From a virus: a stretch of DNA of 21,614 nucleotides. Each line of letters starts with the position of its first letter. Within the stretch, counting starts at the first letter, position 1. The DNA is taken from the IMG/VR virus record IMGVR_UViG_3300017767_000166, positions 1 to 21,614 of that record; one strand, written 5' to 3'. Positions 1-20,655 of this stretch are shown here, one piece after another. The notes beneath the pieces were generated by a model. It was not told where the DNA came from and did not search any database. It was given only the letters and a program-made list of their open reading frames with translations. Both the position numbers and the translations under genes were made by a program.

Positions 1-942
1 AATGGATCAATTGCAATTGGAAATGTTAGGGATGTAGAACATCAAAATAATCTAATAACTCAATTTATTGAAGAAAATTATCCCGATGCAGATAAAAAAG
101 AATTAGATGCAATTAGACATATTAATAGAACAATTAATTCTAAATTACCTGTTCTAGAATCTGTAAGAAATGTAACATGGTATCCGGTTTCATTTGAATT
201 TGATAATATGTTTTCATATGGAGAAAAAAATAAAGTAGATTTTTCAAAATTATCAGATGTTATAGGATTATTCGCAGCAAATGCATCTGGTAAATCATCA
301 TTACTTGATGCTATAACATATACTATATTTGATAAATGTAGTAAAACAAGTAAATCAAAAGAAGTTTTAAATAATAAAAAGTCTGGTTTTAAAGGTATAT
401 TTAAATTCATGTTAAATAATAAATTATATACTATTGAACGAGAAGGTATAACATTAAAACATGGCCATGTTAAAGTAAACGTTAATTTTTATAATGAAGA
501 TCAAAACTTAAATGGAGAAGAAAGAAGTGATACTAATAAAAGTATTCGAAGATATTTAGGAACTTATGATGATTTTATTTTAACTGCATTTTCATTACAA
601 GCAGATAATAATAATTTTATAGAAAAGTCTCAGCGAGAAAGAAAAGATTTATTATCGCAATTTCTTGATACAACAGTTTTTGAACAATTATATTATTTAG
701 CTGCTGAAGAAATAAAAGAAACATCTGGTAAATTAAAAGAATATAAGAAAACAGATTTTGGATCTATAATAAAAGAATCAGATGATATTATCATTGCAAA
801 TCAAGATACAATAATTGAATTAGAAGAATCAGATAATGAGTTTCAAGAGTTAAGAAATAAATTACAAAATGAAATTGTAGAATTAATTGTTCTATTAATA
901 TGTCTAATTGCATCTAATTCTTTTTTATCTGCATCAGGATAA
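1..942 (+). pseudogene. SbcD C-terminus fused in frame to SbcC-like ATPase (partial, chimeric end)
   Basis: The reading frame is open from base 1 to a stop at 940-942. Bases 1-141 encode the last 47 natural residues of the SbcD/gp47-like protein seen on the minus strand at 1961-879. After a 22-residue linker the frame enters an SbcC/gp46/Rad50-type ATPase at the Met at 208. Visible there are FSYGE, a Walker A variant (AANASGKSS, Lys at 292-294) and a Q-loop region (FSLQADNNNF, then a basic RERKDLL stretch), followed by the start of a charged coiled coil. The family pairs with SbcD to process DNA ends during recombination and replication. From base 878 the sequence is reverse complement of the SbcD gene, so the last ~20 codons are antisense and the coiled coil and C-terminal ATPase half are missing. 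It is the only plus-strand gene. I infer it is a displaced copy of the natural minus-strand gene. Identification as SbcC is secure; the ORF as it stands is probably not a real protein. Confidence 0.8.
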
Positions 943-1019
943 TTTTCTTCAATAAATTGAGTTATTAGATTATTTTGATGTTCTACATCCCTAACATTTC
1001 CAATTGCAATTGATCCATT
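1..1019. repeat. Perfect inverted repeat, arms 1-142 and 878-1019
   Basis: Base i pairs with base 1020-i from 1/1019 through 142/878. I checked both ends and the breakpoint: identity stops at 143/877. The left arm is cut by the window edge, so it may be longer. The arms hold the 3' end of the SbcD-like coding region and flank 735 bases (143-877) of SbcC-like coding sequence. The join at 877/878 switches strands in the middle of two genes, and both lose their reading there. This is the geometry of a fold-back chimera at a contig end, or of an invertible segment. Confidence 0.93.
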
Positions 1020-1961
1020 TTGATTATTTTCAACATGATTTGCACTACGTTGTATAGATATATCTTGAACTTTATATTTTTTTCTGATAGTTGCAATTAA
1101 TTTTTTAATATCAGATGCATCAGTATCATTAAATTTAATTCTAACTCTTGGTTTTTTTGGAACTCGATATGGCGAATTAATAATTTTTGCATTATCAACT
1201 TCGAATGTAACATAACCATAATTATTTTCTATTTCTATAAATTCAGATGTACGATCAGGTAAATCCCATACTAATATTCCGTGATCTAATGCTTCTCCAT
1301 GATTTTGTTGTATTAATGATCCAGGATATCCAATTGTTTTTTCTTTATTAAGAAATTGAGCAGGTTTATGTATATCACCTAATAATGTTAAATCATGTCC
1401 TTCAAATAAATCTGTTGTAACATGATCATTTGATATTTGAAATCCAATATCTGTTTTTGCGTTATGTACAGCTCCATGATGTAATGCTATTTTATAATGA
1501 GCATCAAAATCTTTTGCTTGAATATAATCTTTTGGAGCTACATCAACCGCCATATGATTAAATACAACGTTTGCAAATTTAAATAATCCATTTTCTTTTA
1601 TGAAATGTATATTCGAATTGTTAATAACATCTAGTATTGGAGATATTGCATCTAATCTATATAAATTATTTAAATTCATATCATGATTTCCTAATATAAC
1701 AATAGTAGGAATATGAAATTGATTAAAAAATTTTGTTAACATGTTAATTAACTCTGGAGACATATCTAATTTAGAATGTACTATATCACCTGTTACTACG
1801 CAAATACTTTGATTGGTTGCATGTTGTGCTATATGTAAAAATAAATTATCAAATACTTCTTGATATTCTCGATGTCGTTTCAGTGTTCGAATATGTATGT
1901 CAGATATATGAAATATTTTATCAACTGATTTGATATTTGTTTTTAATGTTTTTATTTCCAT
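843..1961 (-). CDS. 47: SbcD/Mre11-like recombination nuclease (T4 gp47 type); natural 3' end lost
   Basis: This is a calcineurin-like metallophosphoesterase, the nuclease subunit that works with SbcC/gp46 to resect DNA ends. The metal-binding motif series is complete: DIH at residues 21-23, GD at 58-59, GNHD at 91-94, HHGAV at 161-165 and GDIH at 195-198, followed by the YPGS segment near 212. A capping-type C-terminal region follows. Residues 315-361 repeat exactly the plus-strand translation of 1-141. The last 11 residues (TISFCNLFLNS) are antisense of SbcC coding sequence and come from the inverted join at 877/878, so the true product does not stop at 843. In the undisturbed copy the frame continues into the SbcC-like ATPase with no stop, implying a fused SbcD-SbcC protein of at least about 606 residues plus the missing coil and C-terminus. 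The start overlaps the end of the primase gene by 10 bases. Confidence 0.9.
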   Translation of the reverse strand: MEIKTLKTNIKSVDKIFHISDIHIRTLKRHREYQEVFDNLFLHIAQHATNQSICVVTGDIVHSKLDMSPELINMLTKFFNQFHIPTIVILGNHDMNLNNLYRLDAISPILDVINNSNIHFIKENGLFKFANVVFNHMAVDVAPKDYIQAKDFDAHYKIALHHGAVHNAKTDIGFQISNDHVTTDLFEGHDLTLLGDIHKPAQFLNKEKTIGYPGSLIQQNHGEALDHGILVWDLPDRTSEFIEIENNYGYVTFEVDNAKIINSPYRVPKKPRVRIKFNDTDASDIKKLIATIRKKYKVQDISIQRSANHVENNQNGSIAIGNVRDVEHQNNLITQFIEENYPDADKKELDAIRHINRTINSTISFCNLFLNS

Positions 1962-2899
1962 AATGAATTTATTTCCATTGTCATTAATTCTTCGAAAGAA
2001 AATTGATATGTTTCTTCAATTTTTTCTGTTATTCTTTTATATCCCATTTCATTAGGATCTTCATCGTCTAATTTAACTAGATATACATGTATACCTTCTT
2101 GCAAAAACATTTGAGCTATATGTTTTGCATTATTTAATGCATCTTGATCTAAGCATATATAAATTTCTTTAACACCCTCTTCAATTATTTTTATTCGAAG
2201 TTTAGGATTAATCATTTTACCAAATAATGGTATTGCATTTCTTTTAATAGTAATTGCGTCAAACGCTCCTTCACATAATATAATAGGTTCGTTCCAATTT
2301 ATTAACATATCAAATCCTATGATATCTTTTGATATTTTTGGATTCTTATGCTTATATAGATCATTTTCATAAAATGCTCTAGATACAAAATAATTTAATT
2401 GTCCTGTATAATCATAACTTGGAATAATAATTTTACCAGAATATGGTCCTGATTCTGCATATCCTATTCTATATCGAATTATATCAAATATATTTATTCC
2501 ACGTTTTTGTAAATAATGCATTGCATTTTTATAATCAGGAGTTTTTCTTTCTAACCATAATGGTTTATAATCTTCTGGTAATTGTATTATTTCTTCAATT
2601 TGTTTTTTATCAATTGAATTATTTCTATACTTCGATCTTTCAATTAATTTTCCTAATTTTTCAAATTTGTCTTTTGGTAAATTTAATTGTTTAAATAAAG
2701 AATGTATCGATCTACCTTTTTTATTAGATATCCAACAATGCCATGGATTTTGTCCTTCACGATTTGTATTTAAATCAATTTCTAGTTTAGGCTTGTAATG
2801 TGAAGTAAATGGAGAAAAGAACGCAACATTATTACCAGATGTTGGTTTACCTTTACCTAGTACAGATTCTAGCAATTGAAGTAGTTTAAGATTCTTCAT
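1952..2899 (-). CDS. 61: DnaG-type DNA primase (T4 gp61-like) with degenerate zinc ribbon
   Basis: The 315-residue protein would make RNA primers for lagging-strand synthesis with the replicative helicase. The N-terminus (residues 27-70) follows the phage primase zinc-ribbon layout: SPFTSHYKPKLE, then PWHCWIS, then KGRSIHSLF. The Cys positions of the usual CPFC...WHCWxC pattern read Ser29, Thr32, Cys55 and Ser58, with His34 kept. A Toprim catalytic fold follows: LCEGAFDA with Glu210, then CLDQDA with Asp251 and Asp253, then DDEDPNE around Asp281. The length suits phage primases that lack a helicase-binding domain. No Shine-Dalgarno sequence precedes the ATG. The gene overlaps the downstream SbcD-like gene by 10 bases, indicating a common transcript. 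The toprim assignment is firm; zinc binding is doubtful. Confidence 0.88.
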   Translation of the reverse strand: MKNLKLLQLLESVLGKGKPTSGNNVAFFSPFTSHYKPKLEIDLNTNREGQNPWHCWISNKKGRSIHSLFKQLNLPKDKFEKLGKLIERSKYRNNSIDKKQIEEIIQLPEDYKPLWLERKTPDYKNAMHYLQKRGINIFDIIRYRIGYAESGPYSGKIIIPSYDYTGQLNYFVSRAFYENDLYKHKNPKISKDIIGFDMLINWNEPIILCEGAFDAITIKRNAIPLFGKMINPKLRIKIIEEGVKEIYICLDQDALNNAKHIAQMFLQEGIHVYLVKLDDEDPNEMGYKRITEKIEETYQFSFEELMTMEINSLWK

Positions 2900-3078: not shown

Positions 3079-3555
3079 TCATAATGCAAAAAATTTTGTT
3101 GCAATCGGTGTTTCGCCTTCTTTACAACATTCCTTTAGCCATTCCTCCGGCATTTCTTTTTTTGCAACATGTTGTATTCCTATTTTTTTTGCATACATTT
3201 CATATGTTGTTTTTGAACCTTTTGAAATTTTTTGATTTGGATTTTGAAATATAATTCGTAAATCAATTTTTGGATGTGATGCTAAAACATGTTTCATTTT
3301 TTGTCTATCAGTACTTGTCCATCTTCCTTTTGTTTCAATATACATTATATTACCATTCTTTTTTATAAAAATAAAATCTGGTGTGTATTTTGAATTTTTT
3401 TGAGGAATAATATATTGTAATGTTTCTGTTTCATATTTTACTGGATAATGTGCTTCTTTGATTTGATCTGCTACTTTTAATTCTAGTCCAGATCGATATC
3501 CATATTTGTACGCCGCTTGGCGTTGTTTATTATTAGAGTGCCAATGATTTTTCAT
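3079..3555 (-). CDS. T7-type endonuclease I, Holliday-junction resolvase
   Basis: This PD-(D/E)XK nuclease cleaves branched DNA such as Holliday junctions and replication forks, and in T7 also helps degrade host DNA. Counting from the ATG at 3555 (158 residues), the catalytic set is Glu25 in RSGLE, Asp60 in YTPDF, Glu74 and Lys76 in ETKG. The 35-residue spacing from Glu to Asp equals that of T7 gp3 (Glu20 to Asp55). Downstream, DLRIIF, KGSKTTYEMYAKKIGI and the MPEEWLKE segment align with the T7 protein's DIRIVF, KGSPTSYGEFCEKHGI and IPAEWIKE. A TTG start at 3579 would add eight residues and overlap the kinase-like gene by 11 bases. The ATG is preferred because it follows a purine-rich AGAAAGA and lies just past the upstream stop (3569-3571). 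T4 itself uses the unrelated gp49 for this task. Confidence 0.93.
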   Translation of the reverse strand: MKNHWHSNNKQRQAAYKYGYRSGLELKVADQIKEAHYPVKYETETLQYIIPQKNSKYTPDFIFIKKNGNIMYIETKGRWTSTDRQKMKHVLASHPKIDLRIIFQNPNQKISKGSKTTYEMYAKKIGIQHVAKKEMPEEWLKECCKEGETPIATKFFAL

Positions 3556-3568
3556 AACTTTTTTCTTT

Positions 3569-4117
3569 CTACCAGTCAATCATTACTAATTGACCATTCC
3601 ATAACATAATATTATCAGGTTTAAAATCTAATGAGTATTCTAAATCTCCAATACCTGTCTTTTTTACTTGTTGTTCTAATGCTCTTAAAAAACTAATTAA
3701 TTTTATATTATAATTTCTAGATGATTCTGTATTTAAAAAGTCAAAAATACTTGTTTCTAATCCTTGACTTCTTGCAAATTCTTTAAAGTCTTCATAATAT
3801 CTAGAAATTTCATTTTGTAAATTATTTGGTAATTTATCTGCACGAGACATTATATATATTCTTTTTTCTGGATCTGCGTAATGTACTGGAATAAATGAAT
3901 TATACTCATTATATCGTCCTACAATAACTCCAGCTACTGCTACTTCGTCTGGTTCTGTTGTTATTTTAAATAATAAATCTTCACCATTAATATAATATAC
4001 TTTTCCATTATCTCCGCTATTCAAAAATGTAAGATCTTTGTTTTTTATTTTTTGTAATAATCTTACAGCTTCTTTTTCAGCTATTTCGTTTAATAAATTG
4101 CGTAATTGAATAGCCAT
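3569..4117 (-). CDS. Minimal protein-kinase-like fold protein, ends at the DFG-equivalent Asp
   Basis: The 182-residue protein shows the landmarks of the kinase / aminoglycoside-phosphotransferase superfamily: a glycine-rich turn GDNGKVYY (35-42), a candidate ATP-anchoring Lys51 in LLFKITTEPDE with acidic partners at 56 and 58, a hinge-like IYIMSRADKLP (87-97), a catalytic-loop-like DFKPDNIM (164-171) and MIDW with Asp181 as the DFG-equivalent metal ligand. The protein stops one residue after that Asp, so the usual C-lobe helices are absent. Its ATG shares the last base of the preceding tail gene's TAA. That gene's 3' end, which encodes RGRGGKI, supplies a strong GGGGAGGT ribosome-binding site 9-10 bases upstream. 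A phosphotransferase acting on host or virion proteins is possible, but no substrate can be inferred. It could also be an inactive structural relative. Confidence 0.65.
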   Translation of the reverse strand: MAIQLRNLLNEIAEKEAVRLLQKIKNKDLTFLNSGDNGKVYYINGEDLLFKITTEPDEVAVAGVIVGRYNEYNSFIPVHYADPEKRIYIMSRADKLPNNLQNEISRYYEDFKEFARSQGLETSIFDFLNTESSRNYNIKLISFLRALEQQVKKTGIGDLEYSLDFKPDNIMLWNGQLVMIDW

Positions 4118-5754
4118 TATATTTTACCTCCCCTTCCCCTATCTAAATCAATTTTCATTCGAATATTTAAATCAATATCTGTTCTATTTAATATTGGATT
4201 TGCTAATTTTCCTATCATCAACATTTGACCTTTATCATTAAACATCCCAATTGTAGTTATATAAGGTGCAAAAGAACTGCCGGTTACAAACCCTTTTACT
4301 GTAATATTATCGTCTTTTAAAGCAGATGGATTTAATGTAACATTAAAATCTCCTTCATCAATTTGTAAAAACATTGAATGCTCATATCTACGAACTGTAC
4401 TTCTATATGTTGCTGTATAATTTTCGTTAATTAAATCATGATAACGATAATCTAATGTAGATATTACTATAAATCCTGTTTGTCCAAATACATTTCCTAC
4501 TTTATTATTTTGAAGAAATTGAGGTATATTAGACTCTAGAGCTCCATTATAAATTGTTTGTACTTGGGCATCTGTTAATACAAAATCATATATTCTAATT
4601 TCATCTAACGATCCATTTAAATAATTGTCTGTATTGCTATCTAATGGCCCAAATCCACCAACTGACAGTTTATCATTATTATTTATATAATTAGTTGTAT
4701 TTTGATCATTGCGTATAAAACTATATGAATTTCCTGCAAATGAATTTCCATTTATACTTGTTTGTAATGTATGACCTATTTTTTGACAACATACAAAATT
4801 CCAAGCTCCATTTATTAAATCTGAAGAAATTTCTGTTGCTTTATTATTTTCGGAGCTCTGTACAGAAAATAATATATTAACTTTTCCATTTAATGCTCCT
4901 GACTGACCATGAGAATTAGTTTCCATTGATGATGACAACATAATTTTAAATGGATATTGTTGATTAGGAGAGGTTTCTGATTTAGCTACTATTAATCCTG
5001 TAGACTCAACTGGAGTAGAATTTTTTGCAGGATATATCCAAAATGCAATCGAATAATCATGATCTCTATCATAATACCCTTCTATATCAGATTGAAAATA
5101 ATTTGATCCAGAAAAAAATGCTGATAATCCTATAGGTTTTTTCTGTCCGTCTCTTGTTGTAACACCCGGTTGTATATTTAAATTATGCGACTCATATTGA
5201 ATTTTACTTTTATCAAAATAATGATTAAATCCTTCGGAAAACATTGGAAAATCTTCTAAAAAACTAGAAGAATTAGCATTAATATCAAATATATTTCCAT
5301 GTCTATCAGAATTTAATGTTAATGATCCATTAGTCCATGTAAATGAATCTAGTTTAATTCCATCGCCAAATCGTTTTTGAGGAATACTAAAAACTGAAGC
5401 TGTTTGATATAAATACTTTTCTACTTTATTTAAATTTGTTGGACCAAATGTTTTTGCCGGCTCATATTTGTATTTATAAAATAAATGATCAATTGAATAA
5501 TATGTATTAAATTGATATGAATTGTCAATGTTTAAAGGAAATGTTTCATTATTATCAATTAAAATTTTGGGTAATGTATTTACATATACTCCTTGTAATG
5601 GAAGAAATCCATCTTCAACAGCACTTGCAGAAGTAAATGTAAATTGTTTATTTGCTTCAAATGGATTAACTTTATAATCAGCTGAGTCTAGTTTTTTAAA
5701 TACAGTTGGTACCGTACCGTTATAATTAGTGATATCTGTATTTTGATTACTCAT
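4117..5754 (-). CDS. Tail protein with LamG-like domain and shared C-terminal module
   Basis: A 545-residue virion protein, probably at the baseplate or a fibre. Residues about 205-405 form a concanavalin/LamG-like jelly roll: the SIAFWIYPA strand near 235-243, a GAWNFVCCQKIG stretch near 317-327, and GSLDEIRIYDFVLT near 381-394, a classic closing segment of this fold. Such domains bind glycans or other surface ligands. Residues about 461-538 (FLQIDEGDFNVTLNP, then YITTIGMFNDKGQML, then RMKIDLD) match the C-terminus of the neighbouring 409-residue protein, suggesting a common docking module. The start is the ATG at 5754; the hairpin and T tract at 5760-5796 lie immediately upstream and there is no adjacent Shine-Dalgarno sequence. 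The last codons double as the ribosome-binding site of the kinase-like gene. Confidence 0.75.
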   Translation of the reverse strand: MSNQNTDITNYNGTVPTVFKKLDSADYKVNPFEANKQFTFTSASAVEDGFLPLQGVYVNTLPKILIDNNETFPLNIDNSYQFNTYYSIDHLFYKYKYEPAKTFGPTNLNKVEKYLYQTASVFSIPQKRFGDGIKLDSFTWTNGSLTLNSDRHGNIFDINANSSSFLEDFPMFSEGFNHYFDKSKIQYESHNLNIQPGVTTRDGQKKPIGLSAFFSGSNYFQSDIEGYYDRDHDYSIAFWIYPAKNSTPVESTGLIVAKSETSPNQQYPFKIMLSSSMETNSHGQSGALNGKVNILFSVQSSENNKATEISSDLINGAWNFVCCQKIGHTLQTSINGNSFAGNSYSFIRNDQNTTNYINNNDKLSVGGFGPLDSNTDNYLNGSLDEIRIYDFVLTDAQVQTIYNGALESNIPQFLQNNKVGNVFGQTGFIVISTLDYRYHDLINENYTATYRSTVRRYEHSMFLQIDEGDFNVTLNPSALKDDNITVKGFVTGSSFAPYITTIGMFNDKGQMLMIGKLANPILNRTDIDLNIRMKIDLDRGRGGKI

Positions 5755-5759
5755 ATTAG

Positions 5760-5796
5760 AAAAAACCCGTTATATATTTATTATAAATATAACGGG
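5760..5796 (-). terminator. Intrinsic-terminator-like hairpin in a tail-gene leader
   Basis: On the coding strand a 10-bp stem beginning CCCGTTATAT (5787-5796 with 5766-5775) has an 11-base AT loop and is followed at once by six T residues (5765-5760). The stem base is GC-rich against a very AT-rich background. It sits after the stop of the 409-residue tail gene and only five bases before the ATG of the 545-residue tail gene. It could end part of the late transcripts, act as an attenuator, or shield an RNA end. Confidence 0.7.
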
Positions 5797-5818
5797 CCTT
5801 AATTCCATGTAATTATTT

Positions 5819-7048
5819 TTAGTAATCTAATTTTACTCTCAGTAATGCTTCTCTAGAAAATGACTTTAATAACGGCTTACTTAATTTAGCAACAGCTAAT
5901 AATTCATTTTTACTATTATATAATCCAACAGTTGTTATATATGCTTTTGGATTATTAACAAACGTTGATTGTTTTAAATCTCCAACTGATCCAGTTACAT
6001 ATGAAGGATTATTTGAAAAATTGAAACTTCCATTTTTTACTCTTACAAAATAATGAGTACTTGTTATCTCTTGTTCATTTCTTGCTTCAAATCCAATGTT
6101 TCCGCTTGCCGCAGCTGATGAACCTGATATTGAATTAAATAATATAAAATGATTATTACCTTCTGCTGTTGCAGAATTAGTAGCACTTAAATTAGTATTA
6201 AATCCAACATGTTGATCTAACATTTTTCCATCTAATACCATAATACCATGTAATGGATAAAATAATCCATAATATGTAGCAGTACTAGATCCTCCTGGAG
6301 AATGTACTCCATTATCGATACTTCCAGAAACAATATTATAAACTATTCCTGCACTAGTATTTGTTCCATTCGAATTAATACTCGAATCATCAATTAACGT
6401 TACTGTTTGACTACCACATACAACACTTCCTGTTGCATTTGTATTATGTGATGTAATAGACTGTAAAGGTAGCTCCCAATTTCCAAAATCTATTTTTTCT
6501 TTTTGTCTACTTCTTTGTATATTGACAACATATATGTAATCAGTACTACCAGATCCAGCTGTTACAAATCTTGTTGCATCTTTTTCTAATAATAATTGTC
6601 TATATTGCGAATAAATAGCTTGTGCTGCAGGAGTTTCTTGTGTTCCTAATTTTGAAGATCCTTTTCCTTCAACATGACCGTATGCTAACGCAAATTGAAC
6701 TTCTCTTGTTTCTACATTTGGAGCTGCATCTATTACGTCTACATAATGTCTTATCTGAGAAACAGTTTGTGTAGAAGAAGTATGAAATGTCGTTAATGAT
6801 CCTAAACCTCCAGTCCATAATCCAGCTGTAACTATTTCTTTTTGTTGTGTAACAACATCTTCGTCTGGATTAAAACTTGAATATGTTTGTCCTGATACAC
6901 GAATTGTTGGTATATTAGAGGGTTGATTAGCTTGTAAAAACTCAGCTTCATCTGCACCAGCATCTAACGAAACTTGTTGACCCGTAGTAGATCTTGTTTC
7001 CATTTGACCATGATTTGGTAATGTTTTTAAATTATTAATTAAATTCAT
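5819..7048 (-). CDS. Tail/baseplate structural protein with shared C-terminal module
   Basis: A 409-residue protein in the tail block, with no enzymatic motif seen. Its middle is rich in Ser, Thr, Asn and Gly, typical of beta-structured virion proteins. Residues 331-409 (HYFVRVKNGSFNFSNNPS, then AYITTVGLYNSKNELLAV, then LLRVKLDY) form a module repeated at the end of the adjacent 545-residue LamG protein and, as I recall, common among structural proteins of environmental T4-like phages. The ATG at 7048 follows TAGGAAAAC, a reasonable ribosome-binding site. The gene lies 24 bases after the stop of the 235-residue gene and ends before the hairpin at 5760-5796. I infer a virion part attached to the same site as the LamG protein; the exact role is unknown. 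Confidence 0.7.
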   Translation of the reverse strand: MNLINNLKTLPNHGQMETRSTTGQQVSLDAGADEAEFLQANQPSNIPTIRVSGQTYSSFNPDEDVVTQQKEIVTAGLWTGGLGSLTTFHTSSTQTVSQIRHYVDVIDAAPNVETREVQFALAYGHVEGKGSSKLGTQETPAAQAIYSQYRQLLLEKDATRFVTAGSGSTDYIYVVNIQRSRQKEKIDFGNWELPLQSITSHNTNATGSVVCGSQTVTLIDDSSINSNGTNTSAGIVYNIVSGSIDNGVHSPGGSSTATYYGLFYPLHGIMVLDGKMLDQHVGFNTNLSATNSATAEGNNHFILFNSISGSSAAASGNIGFEARNEQEITSTHYFVRVKNGSFNFSNNPSYVTGSVGDLKQSTFVNNPKAYITTVGLYNSKNELLAVAKLSKPLLKSFSREALLRVKLDY

Positions 7049-7072
7049 TTGTTTTCCTATTTATTCTAATTT

Positions 7073-7780
7073 CTATCTATATGAGTTACCTCTATTTTCT
7101 TCTCTAAATCCAATATCTTCTTTTCTTACAGCTGTAGCTGCAACTTCTTTCTTAACTTTTACATTAATAGTAGTACTACCACCAGTTTCGTTAGCTATTA
7201 TAGTTATAGTTGCTTCTTTATCTGATAAAACTTGTGGTAATGCAGTAACTTGGAACTCAAATCCTGCTACAGCAACACTTTGTTTATCTGCATTCGATCC
7301 TAATAAAGTTGGAGCAGTTGGTAAATTTCCTGGATTTGATAATTGTTTTGTTACTGATATATCTGCAACAGTACTGTCAGATAAAATTGCTGTATATCCA
7401 AATGTTGCATTTCCTCCTTGAAAATTACTTGTATTTGGACTAATGATAGACGAATCTCCTCCAGCTAATAAATTTATCGAAGCATTTCCAACTGTTATAA
7501 CTGGTATTCTTGTTGTAGATTTTGGCAATGTAACTAATTTATGTTTCAATGCTTGAGTCTCATCTGGTATAGCTTCTACTAGCGGCAAATTTTCTATTAA
7601 TGCTCCGTAATAACTAGATCCTAATGGATGATTAACATTCCATAATCCATAATCTACTTCATCATATCCTAACGCAAATTGCGTAATATTAAAGTCACTA
7701 CTTCCAGCAGCTAACAATTCTCTTCCTTTTTTTGTAAGTATTGCGTCTACTGTTATTGTATTATTATTTAAATATCCCAT
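7073..7780 (-). CDS. Small tail/baseplate protein, possible Ig-like C-terminal half
   Basis: A 235-residue protein. The N-terminus (residues 1-60: VDAILTKKGRELLAAG, then FALGYDEVDYGLWN) resembles a domain that I recognise from uncharacterised structural proteins of large tailed phages, where it heads short tail-associated proteins. The second half (about 100-220) is made of alternating hydrophobic strands ending in ATITIIANETGG and INVKVKK, consistent with a bacterial Ig-like fold often used for surface binding. The start at 7780 follows AAAAGG, 11-16 bases upstream. A 50-base AT-rich spacer separates it from the giant upstream tail gene. The virion role follows from its position within the tail block and is not proven. 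Confidence 0.65.
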   Translation of the reverse strand: MGYLNNNTITVDAILTKKGRELLAAGSSDFNITQFALGYDEVDYGLWNVNHPLGSSYYGALIENLPLVEAIPDETQALKHKLVTLPKSTTRIPVITVGNASINLLAGGDSSIISPNTSNFQGGNATFGYTAILSDSTVADISVTKQLSNPGNLPTAPTLLGSNADKQSVAVAGFEFQVTALPQVLSDKEATITIIANETGGSTTINVKVKKEVAATAVRKEDIGFREENRGNSYR

Positions 7781-7830
7781 ATTGTATATACCTTTTATTT
7801 TTAATAAATATTATCATCTAAACTTTTTTA

Positions 7831-10800
7831 TTATTTTTCATATCTTCTAGGTTCCTCGCCTGAAGATCCTTTTCTTTTTCGACTTTTTTTCTTCTTTAAT
7901 TTCTCAATAACAAATGCACCAGTAGATCCAGGTTGTGATAATGTTATTTTATTTGGATTAATATCTGTAAATTCAACTACTGGGCCGCCATCTACTGTTT
8001 TAAAATCTCCTTCGAATCGTGTAGGTTCAATATTAAAATCTTTTCCAATTAATTTTGATCCCATATATAAAGAGTTAGATCCTCCTTCAATATTATAATC
8101 CTGAACATCTGCAAATGAATAGCTAAAATGTATTATTGTTTTAGAATTAACTGACAATGTAGATCCATATTGTGAATTTCCATATGTTGCGGTACCATAA
8201 CCTGATGATTGACCTAATTCAATACTAGAAGAAATAAATTTTTTCTGATATATATTAGATTTTCTAGAATCTAAAATAATAGGAGATACTGCTTCTGATT
8301 CCCAATAAGGCGTTACATCAGTTACCCATGCTCCGTTTTGTCTACGCAATGATGTTTTTTGATATGACGCGGATGCATATGAATCACTACTAGATGTTAA
8401 ATATGCAATTAAATTATCTGATATACTACCATCAATAGTATTATTTCTATAATCATCTATTATTAAATTACTACTTAAATCATGAATAGAAGAAGTAATA
8501 TTTTTCGTAGAGTCAGATAAAATAATTTCAGTATTATATGTTTCATTAAATTTAGTAAAATATCCTGTATCTGTACTATCTTTACTTCTTTCTAATAATG
8601 TTGGTTGTAATAATAATCCTTTTATCTTTTCAGCTCGAGCTGGTAATAATTGATCAATTTGTGAAAAGAATGTTAAATCAAATAGTTTAAATATACTTAA
8701 GAAATCATTTAAATTACTTTTATCTTTATATTTTTTCCAATAAGTATTTGCAAATTTTTCTAAAACAGAATAATTTCTAGAGTCATTATCAATAGGATCT
8801 CCAATATAATCTTCTAAATTAACACGTCCTAATTGTGAAATAATATCTTCATTAATTATTGTTTGAGGAGAATAAAATACGCCTAATTTAGGAGAATCTT
8901 TTGGAGCAGTATCATATTGACTTTGTTCTGCTCTATTATTTACAGATAATGGAGCAATTAATTTATTGTCTTCTATTCTAATCTTATTATCATCGAATGT
9001 ATCATTACCAACAGTGATAGCATCATAAAAATATGTTTCTTCAAATGAGTTATATGGATTTGAATTAGACCAATTAAAAAATGATGCTGATATATTGGAT
9101 TCGTTTGGTTCAATTCCTAATAAACTACTAGTTAAATTATGATTTACATTTTCAGTCAATGGTAATCTAAACAATAATTCATTATATGTATCTATGTTAC
9201 CGTCATATGCTCCCGGTGCTTTTGTATGATTGGAAAATGGAGCCAAATCTAAACTTGAAGTCCATAATCTAAATTCTTGTAATTGTCCTTGTAATCTAGA
9301 TCCTCCATTGCCACCTGGTTCTCCACCTAATATAACTTTACCAGTACTAGGAAAACTTCCTGTTACTGATGCTGAAACCGTAGTTGTAATTTTTCCAAAT
9401 TTTGATTTTTGAGCTATTAATTCTAATGTTCCGTTATCAGAACCAGATCTTAATAAAGTATTTACAAATTCTCCATCAAAACAATCAATTAATCCTGACG
9501 CTGTTGTGTTTATTCTAATAGTTCCTAAAGTACCACTGTTAAAATCAATTGTAACATTGTTTCCACCAACGGAATATAAATTCATAGTAGATGGCATCGA
9601 TGGATTTGTTAGTACATTATCTGTTCGGAATCTTAGCTCTACAGAGCGAATTTGACCAGAATAATCTATTTCAGTAGTACCAGCTGAATTATTTATTAAA
9701 TCTAACGCATATTTTAATTCATGTGACTCATATATAGGAGTTCTTGTTAATTTAGGTCCTCCATATTCATTAATTGAAATCATTGATTGAGGAATTCCAT
9801 AACATGATAATAAAGCTTTGATACTTCGTTTAGTTCCTTTCGATTTTAACAAATATGGCAAATTATTAACAATACGTCTCCATACATGAAAAGTCATGTC
9901 TTTTCTAGACACGCCAGGATCTCCAACAGATAAAGATCCAGTTATTGGTGTTCCTAATTCATTTGTTCCATATAAATATTCCCATAAATCTGCACCTTGA
10001 TTACCTATGGATAAATTCCATCCAAATTGTTTTGCAACTTGATATAATAATTCATTAGGAACTCCTCGTTTTGGATGTTCATCACGTTCGTAAAGTTTTG
10101 ATAAATATTTTACATATGTATATAGAATGTCAAAATGATGTCCTAACATGTTAACAAATATATCCATATCCGAATTATTTGAATCAAATCTTATAAATTC
10201 TGGAATACCTTTTGTTAATATATTATTATTGTAATTGTCATATAAACTAGCAGAATAATATAATGCATTATACCATACATTAAATTCACTACTAGTAACA
10301 GACATGATACTATATGGTATGGTTGAATTACTTTTTGGAGCTGGTTGAATATAACTACCTGTTAATTCAGAAACATTAATATCGTTAGATAAGTAAATAT
10401 CATGTGTGAAATCTATAGACGAAGATTCGTAATACAAATATTGTTCAAATTCATCAAATCCAGATATTAAATTTGTTTTTAATATATTAAAATCATTTGC
10501 ATTTGTTGTTGAAATATTACTAGTAATATTTGAAATTACTTTTGATTGAGAAACATATGTTTCAATTAAACCTAGTTTATATTTAAAATTTGCAACACGT
10601 TCTGCTGCAGAGCTATAAAAAACAAAATTATTAAAATCATGATACTGAATATTTAAATCAATTCCAGATAAACTTCCGGAGAAATATGAGTCAATTATTT
10701 GTTGAGATGTTTGTATTGAAGATCCTAACAAGTCATTCCAAGATTTTAAATCTGTTTCTGTTGATATACTAGTAGCTTCTGAATTAGCTTGCCAATTAGG

Positions 10801-11568
10801 ACCTGATAATCTATTTATTTCGTCTAATATTGAATCAGCTAAAATATGTATTGAATCAACATAAGGAAGTTTATCTTCCTTAACTACCCAACATTTAAAT
10901 TTTTCTTCAATATTAGAGTCTAAAGGTTTTAATAATTTTACATATAAATGTTCTCCAACAACTACACTATTAACAAATTGCGCACAATTATTTTGACTAA
11001 AATTTAATATATATGTTTCTGTAACATTTGGATTATTTTTGTTTCCATTTTCATATGTTTGTCGTACAGATGAAGCATATGATGCTATCTGCGAAAGTCC
11101 TATTTGATTTTCTTTATCAATTAATGATAACTTTACTTCTGTACGATCAGGTGATATTTCAGAAATTTTTAAATATTGATTATCATAATTACCAATTAAA
11201 TTTGTAAAAAAGTTTAAAACAAATCTAAATTTTCCTGCAGTAATACCTAAATTATTGAATTCATCTAATATACTAATATTTAAAATTCCATATGGAAATT
11301 TTTGATCATTACTAGATGTAGAACTTCCAAAATATTGTGTAGGAATATCTGATGTTGCAGTTATACTATGATTTCCAGTTATCCATGTTTCATTTGAATA
11401 TACATGTAATTCAATACGTTGATTAAAACTAGGCAATAAAGTAGATACATGCGATATTCGATATCTAGGGAATTTTAATAAATCATAGTCTAATTTATCT
11501 ATTCTGTTTGCACTTAATGCTTTTTTTGCAGCTAATAATTCGTCTTTATTTGAGTAGTTTTTAAGCAT
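7831..11568 (-). CDS. Giant baseplate protein: gpI-like wedge domain plus LamG-like domain
   Basis: The largest gene here, 1245 residues. Residues about 465-600 carry a P2 gpI-type signature: LLYQVAKQFGWNL (508-520) followed by LPYLLKSKGTKRSIKALLS (570-588), equivalent to the conserved 'kGT...ai..lL...G' helix of tail protein I. That protein links the baseplate wedge to fibres and has a role comparable to T4 gp7. Residues about 640-790 form a LamG/concanavalin-like insert (VELRFRTD near 643, LQGQLQEFRLWTSSLD at 759-774). A helical region near 930-1010 follows (YWKKYKDKSNLNDFLSIFKL), and the C-terminus is strongly basic (KLKKKKSRKRKG). The ATG at 11568 lies five bases after the stop of the 458-residue gene, with no clear ribosome-binding site, suggesting coupled translation. 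The gpI assignment rests on motif recall and gene order next to gp6 and gp25. Confidence 0.72.
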   Translation of the reverse strand: MLKNYSNKDELLAAKKALSANRIDKLDYDLLKFPRYRISHVSTLLPSFNQRIELHVYSNETWITGNHSITATSDIPTQYFGSSTSSNDQKFPYGILNISILDEFNNLGITAGKFRFVLNFFTNLIGNYDNQYLKISEISPDRTEVKLSLIDKENQIGLSQIASYASSVRQTYENGNKNNPNVTETYILNFSQNNCAQFVNSVVVGEHLYVKLLKPLDSNIEEKFKCWVVKEDKLPYVDSIHILADSILDEINRLSGPNWQANSEATSISTETDLKSWNDLLGSSIQTSQQIIDSYFSGSLSGIDLNIQYHDFNNFVFYSSAAERVANFKYKLGLIETYVSQSKVISNITSNISTTNANDFNILKTNLISGFDEFEQYLYYESSSIDFTHDIYLSNDINVSELTGSYIQPAPKSNSTIPYSIMSVTSSEFNVWYNALYYSASLYDNYNNNILTKGIPEFIRFDSNNSDMDIFVNMLGHHFDILYTYVKYLSKLYERDEHPKRGVPNELLYQVAKQFGWNLSIGNQGADLWEYLYGTNELGTPITGSLSVGDPGVSRKDMTFHVWRRIVNNLPYLLKSKGTKRSIKALLSCYGIPQSMISINEYGGPKLTRTPIYESHELKYALDLINNSAGTTEIDYSGQIRSVELRFRTDNVLTNPSMPSTMNLYSVGGNNVTIDFNSGTLGTIRINTTASGLIDCFDGEFVNTLLRSGSDNGTLELIAQKSKFGKITTTVSASVTGSFPSTGKVILGGEPGGNGGSRLQGQLQEFRLWTSSLDLAPFSNHTKAPGAYDGNIDTYNELLFRLPLTENVNHNLTSSLLGIEPNESNISASFFNWSNSNPYNSFEETYFYDAITVGNDTFDDNKIRIEDNKLIAPLSVNNRAEQSQYDTAPKDSPKLGVFYSPQTIINEDIISQLGRVNLEDYIGDPIDNDSRNYSVLEKFANTYWKKYKDKSNLNDFLSIFKLFDLTFFSQIDQLLPARAEKIKGLLLQPTLLERSKDSTDTGYFTKFNETYNTEIILSDSTKNITSSIHDLSSNLIIDDYRNNTIDGSISDNLIAYLTSSSDSYASASYQKTSLRRQNGAWVTDVTPYWESEAVSPIILDSRKSNIYQKKFISSSIELGQSSGYGTATYGNSQYGSTLSVNSKTIIHFSYSFADVQDYNIEGGSNSLYMGSKLIGKDFNIEPTRFEGDFKTVDGGPVVEFTDINPNKITLSQPGSTGAFVIEKLKKKKSRKRKGSSGEEPRRYEK

Positions 11569-11573
11569 AATAT

Positions 11574-12950
11574 TTAATCATAATCTGGTCTATAATCCAA
11601 CCAATATCCTCGATCATTTGTATAAATGAGTCCATATGGATTATCTGTACGTATATTGCTAGAATATGGTTTCTTAAGAAAATTTAAAGTCAATGGATTT
11701 TCTGGTGACCCGGCATACGCTCCTTTTTGTTGAAATCTGTATTGTCTATTAGGTTCTGATTTTAATGGATCTTTAACTGAAGAAACACGCAATAATGCAG
11801 TACTTTTATTTACGGAAGCAATATGAGTAGTACTAGTTACAGGAGCGCTAGTATTATATGGACTATTAGCTACATCTGCTTTTACCGATATATAATACAT
11901 ATCATATGGAGCAATATCATTTGGATCTACTAAAAATTTAAACGAATGTTTCATTGAATATGCAAAAAATCTTCTATCAGTATCATCATCTCCAGATATA
12001 AACCAAGAAGCTTGTTTTTCTACTCCTGGAGGCTTTCCTGATGCGCCTCCGTCATAATTAGTATATCCCCATTTCATTGGATCAAATAATAACGTAGTAC
12101 TTCCATTCTGAAAACTAGTATTTAATTTTCTAACATATCTCCCAGCTGAAGGACTACTATATCCAGAATATCTATAACCTCTATTATCTATACCACCAGA
12201 AGAACCCACCCATGGCCTCCATTTTTGTTTCATAACTCTACTTAAATATACAAAATAATTAACATTATAATCATCATTTTTTATCTGAGTATATAAATCA
12301 AGTTCAAAAAACAAAGTTCTTCCTGAATCTTTTAAATATTTTAACATAGCTGGCGTAATAATATATTCATTACGGTCAGTATCAATAGAATGACCATTTA
12401 TTGTTTTATCAAATGGAACAGTTATACGCTTATTGGGATATAATTTTAAATTGGCGCTATCCATTGAGTTTGATATTTGATATAATCCAGAAACAGGATC
12501 ATATCCTAAATCATTTATATTAAAATCAATATTGAAATCTAGATCTAATTCTCCGCTTGATTTAATTTTAGGAGGAAATTTAAAAAATTGAAATTGTGTA
12601 TCAACTGCATCAATAAATGATTTATTTGTATATGTTTCTGTTATTGGCTCTATTAATAAAGGTTGTTGATTTTTATTGTCCTGTTGAAATTCTAAATTGC
12701 CAGCTCGATCTCGTTTTAATATTTCATTTGTTGTGCTAGCTAACCCATCTTTAATATATTTTTCTTTCGAACTAGGTAAAACTGCATTTGGTATAGTTTG
12801 ATTAGTAGGTACAGTTGATGATATATTTAAAGATTGCTGTTTTCCATCTCCATTTTTATTTTGACTGCTTTTTATAGGACCTTCAGATAAAGCTTTAGAT
12901 CTAGAAAGTCGTTGTCCAACCCTAGGATATTTTTTTAAACTTTTTATCAT
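11574..12950 (-). CDS. Tail-associated protein of unknown function
   Basis: I do not recognise this 458-residue protein. The N-terminal ~100 residues are polar and low in hydrophobics (Gln, Asn, Lys and Ser rich), probably flexible. From about 120 onwards it has beta-rich stretches (LDLDFNIDFNIND, RTLFFELDLYTQI) and aromatic, Gly-rich loops around RGYRYSGYSSPSAGRY. It ends in a Tyr- and Asp-rich tail (GYWLDYRPDYD). There is no signal peptide or membrane span. It sits four bases after the DNRLRE-like gene and five bases before the giant gpI/LamG gene, so it is surely co-transcribed and very likely a virion component. A TTAGGTAA sequence precedes its ATG. Confidence 0.6.
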   Translation of the reverse strand: MIKSLKKYPRVGQRLSRSKALSEGPIKSSQNKNGDGKQQSLNISSTVPTNQTIPNAVLPSSKEKYIKDGLASTTNEILKRDRAGNLEFQQDNKNQQPLLIEPITETYTNKSFIDAVDTQFQFFKFPPKIKSSGELDLDFNIDFNINDLGYDPVSGLYQISNSMDSANLKLYPNKRITVPFDKTINGHSIDTDRNEYIITPAMLKYLKDSGRTLFFELDLYTQIKNDDYNVNYFVYLSRVMKQKWRPWVGSSGGIDNRGYRYSGYSSPSAGRYVRKLNTSFQNGSTTLLFDPMKWGYTNYDGGASGKPPGVEKQASWFISGDDDTDRRFFAYSMKHSFKFLVDPNDIAPYDMYYISVKADVANSPYNTSAPVTSTTHIASVNKSTALLRVSSVKDPLKSEPNRQYRFQQKGAYAGSPENPLTLNFLKKPYSSNIRTDNPYGLIYTNDRGYWLDYRPDYD

Positions 12951-12954
12951 TAAT

Positions 12955-14112
12955 TTACCTAACTACTTTAAAATAAAAATCGTCGTCAATAATTTCTTCA
13001 TATATTCCAGAATCAACTTTAAATATTAATCTATAATATCGTTCTGGCATTAATCCAGCTGTGTCTAAATTAATAAAATTACTAGTACTGTCACAACTTA
13101 TTTTTGTATAATCCTTATTAAATGGTATAACAACTTCTTCTGATCCTGCATCTGTTATTGAATAAAATGAACTAGTAGGTAAAAATTTTACCGTAGATTC
13201 TGGGAATTGATTTGTTGGCGACTTACTAGGATATCTATCTCGTGCAAATATTCGTATTTTATTAACACTTGTATCTTTATATTCTTTCTTAATATCTGTG
13301 TATATTTTATATGATTCAAAATTAATTTCTGACATTGATCCTGTATTGAATGTTGAATCATCAAAAAACATAATTAATTTTGGAACATATACCGTATGAG
13401 TTTCACGACTAAAAAAGCTAACTTGTCCTTGAGTGTTAAGATTGAGTTCGTCGACATCTGAAAATTGTAATAAAAATCCATAATTTGGAATTATTTTACC
13501 ATTCGATCCAGATTGCCATGTTTTAATAGCGGAAGTAACATCCATGTAAATATCAGTATTTCTAATAGTTTGTAATGGATCTAAATCACTAACACGATCA
13601 AATGATTGAGAAAATACCATTTGTAATCCAGAATTTGGATCTTGATATAAAGAACTTCCACCGGTACCAGAACCAGATATGTATATATTACTTCCATCAA
13701 CAAATTCATTAGGTAATAAAGAAGATCCAGAAGACCAAATTGATCCTGACGTTGGATAATTCCACGTACATCCGTTTTTAATTTTAGGATTTGAATTTAC
13801 AAACCCTAAACCATTATCCCATTGATCGGCAATCATTTTAGCATGTATATTATAATTCGAAGGAAGATTTATTGCATGAGTTGTATGTAATTGTAAAAAG
13901 AACTTACAATTGTTAATATTAATATTATATTTTGTTAATGATTTAGTTACTTGTGTTATATCAAATTGAACTAACGATCTTGTTTTTAAATAATTAGTTC
14001 CGCCAGTAGTATCACGCTTACCAATTTCTAGAATTTCATCAAGTCCAGCATTAAGTTCTTTAGAAGCTTCTAAAATAGTAGTGTCTTGGGATGGATATAA
14101 TATTTTAAACAT
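12955..14112 (-). CDS. DNRLRE/CBM96-like beta-sandwich tail protein
   Basis: A 385-residue protein whose first ~250 residues follow the pattern of the DNRLRE (CBM96-type) beta-sandwich. It has an N-terminal 'SQDTTILEAS...' strand, then LKTRSLVQFDIT, a TWNYP segment, MDVTSAIKTWQSG, and NYGFLLQFSD. This order (repair-like TWN..P, DVT..v..W, N.GFll) is typical of the family, which is found on secreted and surface proteins and binds polysaccharide in characterised members. The C-terminal ~130 residues look like a second beta domain. In this tail block a carbohydrate-contacting or structural role in the baseplate is inferred. No strong Shine-Dalgarno sequence precedes the ATG at 14112; the gene follows the 206-residue gene by 14 bases. 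Confidence 0.55.
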   Translation of the reverse strand: MFKILYPSQDTTILEASKELNAGLDEILEIGKRDTTGGTNYLKTRSLVQFDITQVTKSLTKYNININNCKFFLQLHTTHAINLPSNYNIHAKMIADQWDNGLGFVNSNPKIKNGCTWNYPTSGSIWSSGSSLLPNEFVDGSNIYISGSGTGGSSLYQDPNSGLQMVFSQSFDRVSDLDPLQTIRNTDIYMDVTSAIKTWQSGSNGKIIPNYGFLLQFSDVDELNLNTQGQVSFFSRETHTVYVPKLIMFFDDSTFNTGSMSEINFESYKIYTDIKKEYKDTSVNKIRIFARDRYPSKSPTNQFPESTVKFLPTSSFYSITDAGSEEVVIPFNKDYTKISCDSTSNFINLDTAGLMPERYYRLIFKVDSGIYEEIIDDDFYFKVVR

Positions 14113-14126
14113 TTTTTATTTTTCTA

Positions 14127-14747
14127 TTAATTTGAATATGTTATAGTAGGTGATCCAGTTACTCCTGTTACGTGCCAATATGTTCCATCACATATCAAAT
14201 CATATTGATCTCCAGTAAAGGTTCTAGAAGATGCTATTTCCATTTGAACAAAAGGTCCATTTGACTTTTGTAATGTGGCATTAGTAGTAGTAAGAATACT
14301 GAATAAGGCTTTTTGATCAGAACTCTCAACAAAGATATTAAATGATCTTGCTAATGCCGCTGGACTAGTAGCAGTATCTCCCACTTGTCCAACTATAATT
14401 TTATATGCAGTACCAGGCGTTACAGAATTTGGTCTAGGCAATTTAAATCCAATTCCATTTGAACCTTGATTACCATCGGAGGGAACTATTAATACATATA
14501 TAGAATTTGAATCACCATTTACATCAAATGTTATTGTCGAATCATTTGGTACTTGGGAAGTAATTATTTTTGATTTATTCCCTGATACAGTCCCGGTGAA
14601 AACAGTATCTCCTGTAAACGTAAACGACCCAGATGGAGTTAAATTATACGCATGAGTTCCTTTCAATGCATCAATCGATTGCGATATATGTGCAGCTTGA
14701 ATTGTTCCTGAATTAGTTATGCCTGATGTTGATAATGTTAGTGCCAT
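14127..14747 (-). CDS. Small tail/fibre-like structural protein
   Basis: A 206-residue protein rich in Thr, Ser and Gly with short beta repeats. The N-terminus (LTLSTSGITNSGTIQAAHIS, then NLTPSGSFTFTGDTVFTGTV) resembles the repetitive 'sGs.tftG.t.ftGtvsg' stretches of phage fibre and head-tail decoration proteins. The C-terminus (YDLICDGTYWHVTGVTG) resembles terminal domains of fibre-type proteins that end in an 'l.cdG..W.v.g' strand. It lies between gp6 and the DNRLRE-like gene, 23 bases after gp6. Its ATG has an AT-only leader without an evident ribosome-binding site. Its assignment to the virion is an inference from composition and position. Confidence 0.6.
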   Translation of the reverse strand: MALTLSTSGITNSGTIQAAHISQSIDALKGTHAYNLTPSGSFTFTGDTVFTGTVSGNKSKIITSQVPNDSTITFDVNGDSNSIYVLIVPSDGNQGSNGIGFKLPRPNSVTPGTAYKIIVGQVGDTATSPAALARSFNIFVESSDQKALFSILTTTNATLQKSNGPFVQMEIASSRTFTGDQYDLICDGTYWHVTGVTGSPTITYSN

Positions 14748-19953: not shown

Positions 19954-20655
19954 TCAAAAGGGTAAATTCACGAATTCATTTTGTTCATATTCTTTGAATT
20001 TTAGATTATATATGTTTTTTAGTACTTTAATAACCTTAGTAATATTATTAGTTTGCAATCCTGTACGTTCACGTATAAATACATATAAAGCTTTTTTATT
20101 ATATTGCTCTATATTTTCTCTATTTTCAAATAGATACAATATTGAGTCAGCAACGTGTATATCTGATTGATTTGTAAATATTCTGTTAATATTTTCATAA
20201 CAATAGTTAACATATGCATTCATGAAAAATTGTAAAAGTTCTTTCATTTCGTTGTTATGCATTTCTGTTACAATATTTCTTTCTTCGTCTATATCTATAG
20301 GGTCCGATTCTTTTTTTAATTTTGCATATCCTTTTTGATTTTCTGCTATTAAATAATTAAATGCAGTTCTTGTATAATATGAGTATGCTTTACCGGCGCT
20401 AGGATTGAATTTATCTAATCTCATTGTTAAATATGTTACCAAATCTGTTTGTAAATCTTGAAAAGAAGAATTAATATAATCCGGCTTCATTTTATTAATA
20501 AGATTTTCAGACAACTTTAAAAAAGCAGGATATATAAATCTTCTATAAATTTTTTCTTTTAAAACCTGTTTGTCATTAGATCTATTATATGCTGCAACTG
20601 AATATTCAGTTATTTTTGTCCAATATCTATTACTTTTTTTCTTTTTTCTTGGCAT
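19954..20655 (-). CDS. 55: Late-transcription sigma factor, T4 gp55-like
   Basis: A 233-residue sigma70-family protein, longer than T4 gp55 (185). Residues about 36-118 form region 2. The -10-recognising part includes LQTDLVTYLTMRLDKFNP, then GKAYSYYTRTAFNYLI, equivalent to the 'kFdp..GkaFsYf..ia.n.li' signature of gp55-like sigma factors. The N-terminus is basic (PRKKKKSNRYW) and the C-terminal ~90 residues are helical with no clear region 4, as expected for this reduced group. It would bind host RNA polymerase with the phage clamp and coactivator to transcribe late (virion) genes. It stands directly upstream of the baseplate block. A GAGGAAG ribosome-binding site precedes the ATG, and its start overlaps the membrane-protein gene by 26 bases. 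Confidence 0.88.
   Translation of the reverse strand: MPRKKKKSNRYWTKITEYSVAAYNRSNDKQVLKEKIYRRFIYPAFLKLSENLINKMKPDYINSSFQDLQTDLVTYLTMRLDKFNPSAGKAYSYYTRTAFNYLIAENQKGYAKLKKESDPIDIDEERNIVTEMHNNEMKELLQFFMNAYVNYCYENINRIFTNQSDIHVADSILYLFENRENIEQYNKKALYVFIRERTGLQTNNITKVIKVLKNIYNLKFKEYEQNEFVNLPF

Follow-up and report, generated by a model that had tools for sequence, protein, structure and literature searches.

A probable R555-type single-chain Mre11–Rad50 (SbcD–SbcC) enzyme in an aquatic tailed phage from a metagenome

The locus and the left end of the contig

The window analysed here, the whole of a metagenomic virus record of 21,614 bases, carries at its left end the two parts of an SbcD–SbcC (Mre11–Rad50) gene, next to primase and endonuclease genes; baseplate wedge genes are also present. 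Every gene with a family match lies on the minus strand, the SbcC piece (ORF 1-942) excepted. The features at this end are as follows.

1-142, plus strand: inverted duplicate (SbcD C-terminus and helix-loop-helix), 141/142 identical to 878-1019; very probably the product of a fold-back
143-175, plus strand: linker of 11 residues, approximately 362-372 of the fused protein, as placed by the AlphaFold2 model; conserved in 123 proteins and under purifying selection
176-876, plus strand: SbcC/Rad50 N-terminal half with strand 1, Walker A (ANASGKS) and the start of the coiled coil (PF13476, E 2e-10; phrog_77, E 2.4e-19)
208-210, plus strand: ATG of the internal methionine M384, invariant in 123/123 proteins; not a likely start
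878-889, no strand assigned: inverted microhomology of 12 nt, TAGAATTAATTG, the chimera point at the fold-back junction (window 856-905 compared with both sites in the relative L003)
878-1961, minus strand: SbcD/Mre11 half, residues 1-361, with phosphoesterase, capping domain and helix-loop-helix (PF00149, E 4.3e-9; phrog_100, E 1.7e-28; motifs DIH, GD, GNHD and GDIH)
1952-2899, minus strand: DNA primase (phrog_47, E 3.2e-30), which shares 10 nt with the start of the fused gene
3079-3579, minus strand: phage endonuclease (phrog_945, E 1.1e-41), which we take, from knowledge of the family, to be of the T7 gp3 (endonuclease I) type

The lone mismatch between the two copies of the duplicated segment is a C at 84 and a T at 936, and here L003 (IMGVR_UViG_3300017772_002404), in which this locus is uninverted and forms one complete ORF of 1,036 aa, sides with 936. 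L003 is 99.9% identical to the window over 889 bases and 99.65% over 3,445 bases. Given this inverted copy, the 12-nt microhomology expected for a template switch or an assembly fold-back, and the lack of any inverted repeat of at least 28 nt in the 170 related loci checked, the left end of the window (1-877) is very probably an inverted fold-back artefact that nonetheless carries genuine sequence. The preliminary description of this DNA had proposed that SbcD and SbcC form one polypeptide, to be rebuilt by joining 1961-878 (minus) to 143-877. The recipe is right, 1-142 being the inverted duplicate: the join yields 1,819 bases of continuous open frame with zero stops. The frame from window position 1 also stays open, from the SbcD C-terminus through the linker into the SbcC N-terminus, up to 877. 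Beyond that point, the plus-strand ORF has a spurious tail (to 942) antisense to SbcD, and the remainder of SbcC/Rad50 beyond 876 is absent from the contig. The fold-back thus makes a false ORF end (878-942, plus) and a false SbcD C-terminus (843-877, minus), with a risk of mis-annotation.

The overlap with the primase gene would fit co-expression of the fused gene with replication genes. The cultured Microcystis phage Mel-JY01 likewise has a primase-like gene a short way upstream of its fusion, and so, as judged by eye, does the locus L128. Elsewhere in the window, several large ORFs in 4117-14747 (minus), such as one of 1,245 aa at 7831-11568, have no PHROG match and lie beside the baseplate wedge genes. 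An ORF of 233 aa at 19954-20655 (minus), likewise without a PHROG match, looks by eye like a T4 gp55-like late sigma factor.

The fused gene among relatives

Loci were gathered by scanning viral contigs with the SbcC half and with an alignment of 10 proteins, by scanning bacterial and archaeal genomes, and from phage records. The best 80 matches were kept per viral scan, and the search went by similarity to the fused protein, so that distant two-gene relatives would escape this set. Among the matches listed, 166 loci besides the window bear the gene, and 159 of the 161 that fully span the junction, coming from many separate assemblies, have one ORF running from SbcD through SbcC; these are the single ORFs for which the preliminary description had proposed searching metagenomic phages. 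A two-gene layout occurs in 0 of these 161 listed loci. Left out of the 161 are L020, L062 and L075, truncated by contig ends, and L086 and L087, divergent cultured phages that the SbcC-half HMM scored under its threshold. The clade is fixed for the fused form, with protein identity down to about 37%, and the 123 complete fused proteins measure 1,026-1,073 aa. From bacterial genomes the scan returned a single relative, whose 4.1-kb MAG contig is possibly of viral origin. Six contigs of 75-183 kb, which may be incomplete, each have a single phrog_77 (SbcC) match, namely the fused gene; Mel-JY01 has two further weak phrog_77 matches besides its fusion.

The preliminary description had also named what might undo the fusion, either an error or frameshift at 100-207 or relatives with two separate genes. 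The former was not found, L003 being uninverted and open, and no intact instance of the latter appears among the matches listed, where the only interruptions near the linker are single in-frame stops in L005 and L061, both with intact flanks. These stops lie near 1628 in L005 and near 579 in L061, within about 30 residues of the SbcD–SbcC junction, one in the helix-loop-helix and one at the first SbcC strand, and are either errors or real split alleles.

Across the 123 complete proteins, the junction region is conserved as INRTINSKLPxxxxxRNxTWxPxxFEFxNMFSYG. In 822 pairs of relatives with 80-97% DNA identity, the linker (residues 357-373) shows a substitution level of 0.034 at codon positions 1+2 vs 0.37 at 4-fold sites, a ratio of 0.09; the same ratio is 0.09 for the ATPase N-lobe and 0.46 for the coiled coil. 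These patterns indicate that the linker is translated and that purifying selection acts on it as strongly as on the ATPase core. As had been noted at the outset, no ATG, GTG or TTG lies in frame in the window from the end of SbcD up to the ATG at 208. Among the 123 sequences, 78 lack all three codons in residues 345-383 and no start codon there is conserved, and on this ground we reject an arrangement of two genes with a start in the linker.

Predicted fold and alternative readings

Both halves of the protein are matched by Pfam, PHROG and NCBIfam, the N-terminal half by Metallophos and phrog_100 (SbcD-like), the C-terminal half by AAA_23, SMC_N and phrog_77 (SbcC-like). In 52 proteins, the phosphoesterase residues D21, H23, D59, N92, H93, D94, H162, D196 and H198 are invariant, as are those of the ATPase: Walker A G411, K412 and S413, signature S947 and G948, Walker B D977 and E978, and H-loop H1010. 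D196 is taken as the Asp at the position of P. furiosus Mre11 His206 (GDIH), matched by motif and not by structural alignment. The CxxC zinc hook, C717 and C720, is also invariant and lies at a break between long helices in the AlphaFold2 model. This model, built from 52 sequences of the family itself, has a mean pLDDT of 82.8 and a pTM of 0.46, so that relative domain placement is uncertain. It contains helices at 326-340 and 346-361, a linker at 362-372 and a strand at 373-382; the helices would fit the Mre11 helix-loop-helix and the strand the first strand of Rad50. The linker of 22 residues in the preliminary description therefore exists, but its length was overstated, part of the second Mre11 helix having been counted in; the modelled loop has 11 residues. 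Also in agreement with that description, a start at the ATG at 208 would remove strand 373-382, the first of the ATPase.

Foldseek matched the model to Rad50, SbcC and Mre11 structures (best PDB E 2.9e-17). In the viral library, the best matches were long full-length proteins of Tupanvirus, Harvfovirus, Yasminevirus and Catovirus, and their alignments of 1,100-1,370 columns imply that they cover both halves; full-length proteins of Tenacibaculum phages were also returned. The top viral match, from Tupanvirus (E 2.6e-72, 24% identity, 1,312 columns), has an E value not comparable with the PDB one, since the libraries differ, and R555 was not in the comparison. Two attempts at a deep tree of fused and separate SbcC, made without Goe3 and PALS_1, whose Walker A sequences escaped the extraction pattern, gave saturated branches on which origins are not countable.

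Taken together, these data make it highly likely that the locus encodes a single-chain Mre11–Rad50 (SbcD–SbcC) enzyme of the kind known from Mimivirus R555, carried by an aquatic tailed phage whose baseplate is that of a contractile tail. The open frame, the intact ORF in L003, the 159 open loci among the matches listed and selection on the linker uphold the original claim of one polypeptide. That the apparent fusion is instead a fold-back assembly artefact or a sequencing error, the real genome having two genes, has next to no probability. The contig end is indeed chimeric with an inverted microhomology at its junction, and stops occur near the linker in L005 and L061, but L003 and 158 other loci among the matches listed are open across the join, the inverted repeat is lacking from the 170 loci, and Mel-JY01 has one annotated CDS; L003 and Mel-JY01 refute this reading. 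It is also very improbable that the fused ORF additionally yields a separate SbcC, by internal initiation at the invariant Met (208) or by post-translational cleavage. M384 is an ATG in 123/123 sequences, as such a start would have it, but its Shine-Dalgarno match is the poorest of the sites compared (a mean of 2.2 of 6, against 3.3 for gene starts and 2.7 for other internal Mets), and a product begun there would lack the first ATPase strand of the model. Since F385, S386 and Y387 beside it also show no variation, and N383 almost none, the conservation of M384 is better explained by structure.

A further possibility is a chance joining of a T4 gp47–gp46 pair in this lineage of phages alone, with no relation to the fusions of giant viruses. 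In its favour, this phage encodes a primase and baseplate wedge proteins, and the pair is kept as separate genes in T4 and Herelle phages. Against such an accident stand the fixation of the fused form in a clade whose proteins diverge to about 37% identity and the nearest structural relatives, which are fused proteins and not separate phage subunits, in a ranking that somewhat favours fused targets because longer alignments score higher. We consider a chance fusion of this sort distinctly unlikely, and retain the R555-type reading.

Known fusions and proposed mechanism

Yoshida, Claverie and Ogata described Mimivirus R555 as an Mre11/Rad50 fusion, with twelve more cases including Bacillus phage 0305phi8-36, and found R555-type fusions to be abundant in aquatic phage scaffolds, near primase and T7-type endonuclease genes (Yoshida et al., 2011; PMC3175470). 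In that study, the Mre11 C-terminus was measured to lie about 28 angstroms from the Rad50 N-terminus in Thermotoga maritima, and a linker of 9-12 residues was estimated (PMC3175470). The window fusion is thus of a known kind, described in 2011, marine phage metagenomes included (PMC3175470). It shares with R555 and its GOS marine phage homologs the order of Mre11 before Rad50, the retained helix-loop-helix, the short linker (9-12 residues estimated, 11 here) and the Asp replacing P. furiosus Mre11 His206; the GOS homologs also lie on aquatic phage scaffolds with a primase and a T7-gp3-like endonuclease close by. It differs from R555 in length (about 1,036 aa vs 1,351 aa), its coiled coil probably being shorter, and whereas few long environmental sequences confirmed the fusion in 2011, well over 100 loci do so here.

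The product of Mel-JY01, WWT39521.1 (PP395634), is a single CDS, 39-40% identical over its full length and two genes downstream of the primase-like gene. Unlike the window virus, Mel-JY01 is a cultured freshwater cyanophage, and its CDS is annotated only as 'AAA domain containing protein'; our literature search found no publication on this phage. T4 gp47/gp46 and E. coli SbcD/SbcC have the same domains, motifs and probable role in DNA-end processing, but are encoded by two separate genes (T4 gp46 has 560 aa), as are those annotated in Moorella, Goe3 and PALS_1. In Tenacibaculum phage pT24 BPT24_019, Xanthomonas phage phiXF1_71 and the huge phage LR756501, too, a phosphoesterase at the N-terminus and a Rad50-like ATPase at the C-terminus share a single ORF; these ORFs are highly divergent, with other linkers, and may be separate fusion events.

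In Mre11–Rad50, two nuclease and two ATPase subunits make up the head, and the helix-loop-helix of Mre11 docks at the base of the coiled coil. The fused protein would read, from N- to C-terminus, as a metal-dependent phosphoesterase, a capping domain, a two-helix Rad50-binding motif, an 11-residue linker, an ATPase N-lobe, a coiled coil with a CxxC hook and an ATPase C-lobe, and its mechanism is likely that of the ordinary complex in catalysis and dimerisation. Since a linker of 11 residues matches the estimate of 9-12, the normal arrangement is plausibly kept as a dimer of fused chains. The linker would merely bridge a gap already present in the two-subunit complex, so that each chain's helices could keep their place at the base of that chain's coiled coil. 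Two chains would pair via their nuclease domains and ATP-bound ATPase heads, and ATP hydrolysis would let the nuclease reach the DNA end for resection. By analogy with the proposal for T4 gp46/gp47, the enzyme probably resects or opens DNA ends for recombination-dependent replication. The forced 1:1 assembly suggested in the preliminary description adds little, and is no special consequence of fusion, since the ordinary complex is already 2:2; what the fusion plausibly adds is that both halves are translated together, stay permanently tethered and are transferred as one gene. A stronger proposal is that the fusion is obligatory and shapes function, the conserved 11-residue tether limiting the swing of the nuclease in the ATPase cycle and giving a distinct mode of end processing by the phage's only such enzyme; we think this unlikely.

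The fused gene opens no new class of system. What is new is its fixation in a large phage clade and its standing as the only such enzyme found in the six long contigs, to which the scale of the survey, the selection on the linker, the predicted fold and the cultured relative are added. What in 2011 was a sporadic curiosity is now seen to be fixed in a large clade of aquatic phages, one of them in culture, and a natural single-chain Mre11–Rad50 of about 120 kDa could suit structural work on nuclease–ATPase coupling.

Two relatives carry additional ORFs at the fused gene. In L084 (LR756508.1, 4600-5660), which is counted among the 159 open loci, the gene is broken upstream of the junction, between GDIHK and GSLIQQ, by an ORF (4701-5615) that looks homing-endonuclease-like by eye, so that either an intron or a free-standing homing element is probable; an Rfam search of the window and L084 returned no RNA element, and no intron match in L084. 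In L128 (7636-8596), the fused gene is directly followed by an ORF of 273 aa that looks endonuclease-like, and the end of this ORF repeats the C-terminal tail of the fusion (ISHIDSMRDVVDKLIEITK...). This repeat suggests that a homing element has entered the fused gene at its 3' end.
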